Origin: Oscillospiraceae bacterium
GTDB taxonomy: Bacteria; Bacillota; Clostridia; Oscillospirales; Ruminococcaceae
Length of the DNA stretch: 64,000 nt
NCBI GenBank assembly: GCA_009777725.1
Contig: WRLG01000001.1
Location: forward strand, 1-64,000
Direction of reading: 5' to 3'
In this document: positions 19,499-21,445 of the stretch, in pieces
Layout of the letters: every line of letters starts with the position of its first letter
How positions within the stretch are numbered: position 1 is the first letter of the stretch
Made by a program: the position numbers and the translations under genes
The notes under the pieces: model-generated
The model's database searches: none
What the model saw: the letters and a program-made list of their open reading frames with translations, nothing else
What the model was told of the DNA's origin: nothing

Positions 19499-21445
19499 TT
19501 ACAGTTTCAGCCATAAAGCGGAGTGAACGCCGCCGTCATCACAGTAGACATCGTCACTGTTAAAACTAACAATTCTTAATTTATCGCTTGCATCCAAACT
19601 ATTGTAAAACACTCCGTTAAGGTGCTTTCGCAATTCACAATTTGTCCAATTATTAGTTGAAATGTCAAACCTATGTTTTTCTATAATATCTTTAGTTATG
19701 AGAAGAACTTCTCCGTTATGCACCCCACGCACGCACCAATCATAACCGCCGAATTTGATTATACTGTTGATTTTGGGGGTTAGGGTTTGTGCGGTGAAAG
19801 CAGTTATGCCGGAATCTTCAACAAAATTTTTAAGGTATTTTTGTTTTTCGTTGCCATGCCTATCTCTTGCGTAAATAGTAGGTATCATATTTCTGTCAAC
19901 GGAAAAGCTTATTTCATACATATTTTCCTTGTCCTCAAGATTTGGGAACAACTCGCTTGCGGTCCCTATGCTTCCCTCAATACGACCTAAACCATCAGAA
20001 CGCCGTGGATTCATATACACCGGTATTTTTGCCGCCCCAAGGTTCATAGAAAACTTATACTTTTCGGTCCATTGCGGAACAGAAACATCTTTGATATTAA
20101 CTCCATGCTTTATCACCGGAACATCAGAAGGTTTTTGAGAATGATTTACACGTGCAATAAAACCTATTTCATGGTCACAAGTGTGAACAACATTATCATT
20201 TTTTGCTATGTAAAATGCTCCTTTGGCTATTGCATATGACCTGTTATACTTAGTAATAGTTTCCGGAAGACGATAGTCTGCATCAGTCATTGACACGTCA
20301 AAAAGAAATTTTCTGACAGTTTGCTCAACCGGACAAAAGTTTGAAAACCCGCCCACAAGCAATACTTTGAATTTTTCTTGCGATTCAATATCCACATTAT
20401 GTTTATGGAAATACTTAACTATTTCTTCCAAAGATTTTTCAAGATGAGGTTTATTCACTTCATTAAAGCATATAATCAAGTCTTCGCAATATACATCAAT
20501 ACTTTCTCCGCTGTTCATGTCGTACACAATCGAAAACAATTCCCTGCCTTTTCCTTCTACGAGGCGAGGACCATTTGTACCCTTAAAATATTTTTTAAAG
20601 CTTTCCGTTATCTTTAAGTCTTGTATTTTTTCTTCCTCAAATTTTTGACAGAGTTCAGTGTATTTGAAAGTTCTTTCTTGGCTATCGGACTTGTATTTTT
20701 TTATGTCAAGACCATGTTTCTTAATAAGGTGTTCAACCACAGCTTCGTCAAACGCAACACCTGCGCAACCATTTGTTTTAGTATACTCGCCAAAACCACA
20801 ACATTCGAGAATTTGTATTTCTTCTCTTTTATTTTCTTTCGGCTCAACCTTGCATAAAGTTGTATCTAATGTTCCTCCGCCAAAATCAACAACGAGAATA
20901 AAACCCTCATATGGCTCGCATTTAGGATTTTCTTTATTCGATTTATATACCTCACAGAAATAAGCGGCGGCAGCGACGGGTTCGCTTTCAATAGTAATTA
21001 CGTTACCATAGCCTAATTCGTCATATATCGATTTTATGTTCTCGCGGACAGCTAAATTGCTGTTCTCTCGAGACCATGCGGCAGGTATAGTCATGACTAT
21101 CTTATCAAAATTTCCGGTATTCTTTTGTTTTTTATAAGAATCAAGGAGTTTTTCTATAAAATCTTTTGCAACCTGATGCGGCGTTCTCCCACTTTCGTGA
21201 ATGGGCATATTAAAATCTTTACCCAGCTTTAACTTAAAATTGGAATATGTATCGTAATTCTTTTTGAAAATTGTGCTTTTGGCAACTTCGCCAATAAAAA
21301 CTGAATCGTTATCATACGCAACGATTGTTGGGATAAAATCAGATTTACCGGGAATAAGTTCAAAAGTGTCAATCTTATCTGTCTCCGAGTCATGATAACA
21401 CAAAATGCTGTTCGTTGTACCAAAATCTAACCCAATTACCATCAT
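19499..21445 (-). CDS. DnaK/Hsp70-like ATPase with a shortened DUF6273-like C-terminus
   Basis: MMVIGLDFGTTNSILCYH, VVDFGGGTLDTTLC, VLLVGGFSNFCPVEQTVRKF; C-terminus INSIIKFGGYDWCVRGVHNGEVLLITKDIIEKHRF...NWTNCELRKHLNGVFYNS...DDVYCDDGGVHSALWLKL. ATG 21445 preceded by gaggcagg SD. Confidence 0.9.
   Translation of the reverse strand: MMVIGLDFGTTNSILCYHDSETDKIDTFELIPGKSDFIPTIVAYDNDSVFIGEVAKSTIFKKNYDTYSNFKLKLGKDFNMPIHESGRTPHQVAKDFIEKLLDSYKKQKNTGNFDKIVMTIPAAWSRENSNLAVRENIKSIYDELGYGNVITIESEPVAAAAYFCEVYKSNKENPKCEPYEGFILVVDFGGGTLDTTLCKVEPKENKREEIQILECCGFGEYTKTNGCAGVAFDEAVVEHLIKKHGLDIKKYKSDSQERTFKYTELCQKFEEEKIQDLKITESFKKYFKGTNGPRLVEGKGRELFSIVYDMNSGESIDVYCEDLIICFNEVNKPHLEKSLEEIVKYFHKHNVDIESQEKFKVLLVGGFSNFCPVEQTVRKFLFDVSMTDADYRLPETITKYNRSYAIAKGAFYIAKNDNVVHTCDHEIGFIARVNHSQKPSDVPVIKHGVNIKDVSVPQWTEKYKFSMNLGAAKIPVYMNPRRSDGLGRIEGSIGTASELFPNLEDKENMYEISFSVDRNMIPTIYARDRHGNEKQKYLKNFVEDSGITAFTAQTLTPKINSIIKFGGYDWCVRGVHNGEVLLITKDIIEKHRFDISTNNWTNCELRKHLNGVFYNSLDASDKLRIVSFNSDDVYCDDGGVHSALWLKL

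Follow-up and report, generated by a model that had tools for sequence, protein, structure and literature searches.

The Hsp70 encoded in the stretch of 64,000 nucleotides analysed here (the window) ends in a shortened DUF6273 domain. The reading we favour (probability about 0.58) is that a shuffled sensor domain of the type targeted by diversity-generating retroelements (DGRs) came to lie on this Hsp70 and then became fixed in sequence when its variable core was lost in frame, the remaining constant half-domain being most likely a docking or lid-like element. A remnant of DUF6273 has probably been retained on the protein. The parts of the gene are listed below (VR, variable repeat; X2, a DUF6273 paralog from another contig).

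19499-21490, minus strand: Hsp70 open reading frame with DUF6273-type tail, 663 amino acids counted from TTG; MVIGLDFGTTNS start at 21442
19778..21442, minus strand: Hsp70 body, consisting of nucleotide-binding domain and beta substrate-binding domain without helical lid (Pfam HSP70 and family profile)
19553..19777, minus strand: kept N-terminal half of DUF6273, PKINSIIKFGGYDW...RIVSFNSD (Pfam DUF6273 1-60; 71-73% amino acid identity to X2)
19547..19556, minus strand: deletion junction, where the NSDN site of X2-type genes and the VR end share a GA(C)RATGT microhomology (nucleotide alignment by eye)
19499..19552, minus strand: leftover of the VR end, DVYCDDGGVHSALWLKL and stop (alignments, and motif with 3 mismatches)

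Membership of the Hsp70 family was supported by the nucleotide-binding domain (NBD) motifs and the beta substrate-binding domain (beta-SBD), the helical SBD-alpha lid being absent. Pfam recognized HSP70 with E=4.5e-16 and, with E=4.7e-6, DUF6273, which matched over model positions 1-60 of 172 only. These positions are followed by the last 17 VR codons; the middle of the domain and the greater part of the VR are gone, in frame, and the reading frame stays open across about 90 codons. On re-reading, the C-terminus proved identical to the one quoted in the first-pass annotation. That annotation had correctly placed the shortened domain at the 3' end of the Hsp70 gene, but the tail itself covers 19499-19777 and does not extend up to 20000.

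A scan of genome contigs with the single protein returned nothing, and a two-sequence profile recovered the Hsp70 family. The homologs share 26-47% identity with it and come from Clostridia, Ruminococcus, Brocadia, Deltaproteobacteria, Chloroflexi, Nitrospirae and several cyanobacteria. The first-pass annotation had proposed looking for homologous Hsp70s with a full-length C-terminal DUF6273; neither these nor Hsp70s sharing the short tail occurred among the 24 homologs, whose sequences end at or shortly past the beta-SBD. Likewise, no Hsp70 with a DUF6273 tail was met in 394 genomes of the order or in 391 of the class. Since none of the 24 homologs has a tail, the domain would have been joined to Hsp70 within this lineage. 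The family profile (17 members) covers only DnaK residues about 9-501, without the helical lid, and the tail occupies the place where the lid of other Hsp70s would be.

Genome-wide, the draft assembly (G000, 2.77 Mb in 49 contigs) contained nine DUF6273 matches. Eight were full length and the one on Hsp70 alone was partial. Three intact copies are found in the window, each matching model positions 1-171. The earlier statement that the middle and most of the VR are missing from the Hsp70 tail holds.

18525..19478, minus strand: W3, full-length zinc-ribbon-like DUF6273 protein, directly downstream of Hsp70 (Pfam)
15330..16805, minus strand: W2, full-length DUF6273 protein with C-terminal repeat region (Pfam)
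12665..13645, minus strand: W1, full-length zinc-ribbon-like DUF6273 protein (Pfam)

A second cluster, on contig C14 (locus L012:14023-20000 and L013:1-10000), comprises five DUF6273 proteins together with an RT, an Avd, vWA proteins, a protein kinase and a PP2C phosphatase. One vWA protein displayed the same N-terminal adaptor as the adaptor-DUF6273 proteins (50-57% identity), as in EAD-type assemblies. In a relative from the same family, DUF6273 forms the C-terminus of larger proteins (L116 and L123) in which a TIR-like region was recognized by eye.

The eight intact VRs show the signature of DGRs. At least three different bases occurred in 33 of the 80 columns at codon positions 1 and 2 (18/40 and 15/40), against 5/40 at third positions; the third base was C or T in 197 of 204 cases, and A was the commonest base at variable columns. 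All eight paralogs carry a VR that is hypervariable at the first two codon positions, of which the tail keeps only the last 17 codons. The neighbouring and the C14 copies have this signature, and the initial view of the tail as a deletion form of a DGR-target-type domain was sustained. The C14 RT bears a GNQASQ motif, conforming to GxxxSQ, and is the sole RVT_1 match in the genome; the Avd matched NF033474 with E=7.5e-13 and 48.7 bits, against a model cut-off of 80. Two patterns run genome-wide returned just the VRs and their remnants, and the assembly holds no template repeat. RTs related to the C14 one, in other genomes of the same family and order, were accompanied by TR/VR pairs differing only at template A. 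From its RT and Avd, the C14 locus is a candidate DGR without an assembled template repeat. An RT of another type was seen in the window (30900-31410, minus strand); it is broken, with its N-part in one frame and a GLPQGTPISP motif in another, and adjoins a truncated serine recombinase.

The 5' half of the tail was closest to the C14 paralog X2 (C14:20745-21725), with 71-73% amino acid identity, against 44-50% for the adjacent W3. Derivation of this half from W3 was rejected on these values, and the recombination with a neighbouring paralog that had been suggested at first is not supported as its source, the nearest relative lying on another contig. W1 and the C14 copy X1 were 88% identical within the DUF6273 domain and had unrelated N-terminal adaptors. 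DUF6273 domains therefore seem to have been transferred between the window cluster and the C14 cluster.

At the junction, X2-type sequence runs up to IVSFNSD and is directly followed by the 17 codons from the VR end. The GA(C)RATGT match at the break would fit slippage or illegitimate recombination and is too short to prove either. Compared with the near-constant motif GGYGTYCGYCCYGCTTTGTGGYT, the VR end of the tail displayed three changes (CGC>CAC, CCC>TCC and TTG>TTA). A motif search thus confirmed GGVHSALW in place of GGVRPALW, as first reported. Two of these alter the protein, replacing R and P, both invariant in the eight paralogs; the third is synonymous. The reversed pattern, used as a control in the genome-wide search, gave 0 matches, so chance resemblance of the tail end to the VR motif was ruled out. 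The genome also contains a second shortened DUF6273 copy (C1:232904-233089, L014:10865-11092), made of an N-half and a VR end that is out of frame. It sits on the same contig as Hsp70, among a run of small genes and next to a protein of 1376 amino acids.

AlphaFold modelled the tail alone with a mean pLDDT of 68; most strands and helices scored 75-84, and the closing strand was formed. For full-length DUF6273 the model was poor, with a pLDDT of 48.5. A combined Hsp70 and DUF6273 alignment set the DUF6273 rows on the NBD and was left out of folding. Among viral structures, Foldseek returned a DUF6273 phage protein as second-best match to the tail (probability 0.92, but E=0.11), and nothing significant came from the PDB. 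The structure prediction called for in the first-pass annotation thus recovered strands, helices and closing strand, without a counterpart in the PDB and with a viral match of E=0.11. These models hint that the shortened form may still fold. Viral sequence scans uncovered no relative of the tail, just two DUF6273 loci.

A different reading, which we hold to be rather improbable but deserving serious attention, is that the tail has no function: after the fusion a deletion took away the DUF6273 core, and what remains simply drifts, tolerated at the C-terminus of Hsp70. None of the homologs needs a tail, conserved residues are altered (GGVRP to GGVHS), and the second shortened copy, with its out-of-frame end, indicates that such products form in this genome. 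Likewise, L, D and Q of VLDVQN in the N-half, invariant across the eight paralogs, are changed in the tail, and these losses, together with those of R and P, would be compatible with some relaxation. Against drift stand the frame kept open over about 90 codons and the pattern of substitution. Pairwise dN/dS between the retained half and X2 was 0.17, with 24 of 43 differences at third positions. A two-ratio codon model put omega at 0.18 for the Hsp70 branch and at 0.25 for the rest of the tree, the former pooling the time before and after the deletion and perhaps reflecting mainly the time before it. Neutrality (omega=1) was rejected on the Hsp70 branch (LRT 10.8), and the two ratios did not differ significantly (LRT 0.36), in a test of three models on one tree with 58 codons and one long branch (0.75-0.9 versus 0.12 for X2). 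An omega of 0.18 with neutrality rejected makes simple recent decay of the retained half unlikely, and the dead leftover implied in the first-pass annotation is weakened by this purifying selection. In our reading the N-half of the tail is old and mostly under constraint, and its end is relaxed.

It is very doubtful that the DGR itself made the deletion by misfiring, through a cDNA that started from the VR end, stayed short and rejoined upstream at a short match. Both shortened copies are indeed cut back to about 25 bases or less from the constant VR-end motif, but these are two cases only, the Hsp70 junction is equally explained by ordinary slippage at a short repeat, the open-access DGR literature examined described no such product, and there is no template repeat for comparison. 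A short-read assembly artefact fusing two paralogs, as might be feared in a draft of 49 contigs with nine related copies, is scarcely credible, since neither half copies other assembly sequence (the N-half is at most 73% identical and the VR end has private changes) and the frame remains open.

The Hsp70 gene belongs to a conserved operon, of which the following members were recognized next to the DUF6273 genes.

17400..18443, minus strand: coiled-coil protein A of the conserved operon; a homolog adjoins Hsp70 in locus L018
16802..17392, minus strand: NrdG-like radical SAM protein, conserved beside Hsp70 (Pfam/NCBIfam)
13654..14988, minus strand: coiled-coil protein B of the conserved operon, with homologs in many Hsp70 loci
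10096..12597, minus strand: CbbX/SpoVK-type AAA ATPase fused to a trypsin-like protease, conserved in the operon (Pfam AAA, Trypsin_2)

This neighbourhood (a coiled-coil protein, the NrdG-like radical SAM protein, a second coiled-coil protein and the AAA ATPase) was kept in many homolog loci, where the AAA ATPase often displayed a trypsin-like domain; zinc-ribbon proteins appeared in some Clostridial loci. A small protein of short repeats (IRDIHGNVTHRLDGN type) is also encoded within the operon (15057-15314, minus strand), and a lipoprotein-like leucine-rich repeat protein with 66-base repeat units lies downstream of it (8180-9481, minus strand). The closest relative, G145, has the same operon with LRR and zinc-ribbon proteins and without DUF6273. 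By eye, its LRR protein and zinc-ribbon protein (L019:6-1382 and L019:4703-5614) displayed a motif resembling the adaptor of the window DUF6273 proteins, which suggests that modules of the operon are swappable. PADLOC returned just protease-domain and other partial matches. The operon extends from Clostridia to filamentous cyanobacteria and matched no named defence system in the resources searched. We put forward as a conjecture, itself unlikely, that a widespread system of lidless Hsp70, radical SAM protein and AAA-protease, unnamed in these resources, can be fitted with one sensor module or another; in this genome these would be lectin domains of the DGR type, one of which, frozen by loss of its variable core, replaces the Hsp70 lid.

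Under the favoured reading of a frozen sensor domain, the setting is this operon, which encodes the lidless Hsp70, coiled-coil proteins, the NrdG-like radical SAM protein and an AAA ATPase that may or may not have a trypsin-like protease. To it the present genome adds DUF6273 C-type-lectin-like proteins with DGR-type variable repeats, which probably act as sensors. From the X2/X5 lineage, a DUF6273 domain was joined to the end of the Hsp70 substrate-binding domain, at the place of the lid. An in-frame deletion, marked by GA(C)RATGT at its breakpoint and reaching into the VR, would then have removed the central and variable part. What is left, namely beta strands, helices and the closing strand ALWLKL, would form a constant half-domain, no longer diversifiable and most likely a fixed docking or lid-like element of Hsp70. 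Fusion is placed before deletion here, receipt of an already shortened copy being also compatible. On this reading, the case shows that a DGR-target-type domain can be transferred to another protein and afterwards cease to be variable.

Several of these elements have precedents. Conflict systems with C-type lectin sensors diversified by DGRs were already described, along with the shuffling of domains and degenerate loci (PMC10907252, PMC7159879), as was DUF6273 as a C-type-lectin-like DGR target of phages (PMC10743442). Hsp70 and chaperones are absent from the main text of a DGR survey (PMC8144416), an absence which, within open-access literature, is no proof of novelty. As in Thiohalocapsa PB-PSB1 (PMC10907252) and the ternary systems (PMC7159879), several proteins bear C-terminal lectin-type VR domains; proteases, AAA ATPases and vWA proteins are nearby; and VR domains are duplicated and shuffled, with remote targets and degenerate loci. 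In contrast to these, an Hsp70 bears the domain here, the variable core is lost, the template repeat is not assembled, and the core operon is composed of Hsp70, NrdG-like radical SAM protein and CbbX-type AAA instead of MoxR, vWA and VMAP. The MoxR-vWA ternary conflict system is defined by a MoxR AAA, a vWA and a third component such as VMAP (PMC7159879); the window operon, with its CbbX-type AAA and protease and no vWA, falls outside it. GTPase-centred conflict systems with HSP70 (PMC7159879) likewise place an Hsp70 inside a multi-component conflict-type gene cluster, but the gene sets differ, no GTPase, GrpE or FNIII partner being seen in the window operon. The phage tentaclins (PMC10743442) share DUF6273, which in them has a C-type-lectin-like fold and a VR hypermutated by a DGR. 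The present proteins, in contrast, are encoded in clusters of several genes on the chromosome and bear adaptors that are zinc-ribbon-like or helical, and the Hsp70 copy is devoid of most of the VR. Finally, the protein resembles DnaK/Hsp70 in its NBD motifs and beta substrate-binding domain, and differs from it in belonging to a family without the helical lid and in carrying, at the place of that lid, a DUF6273 half-domain.
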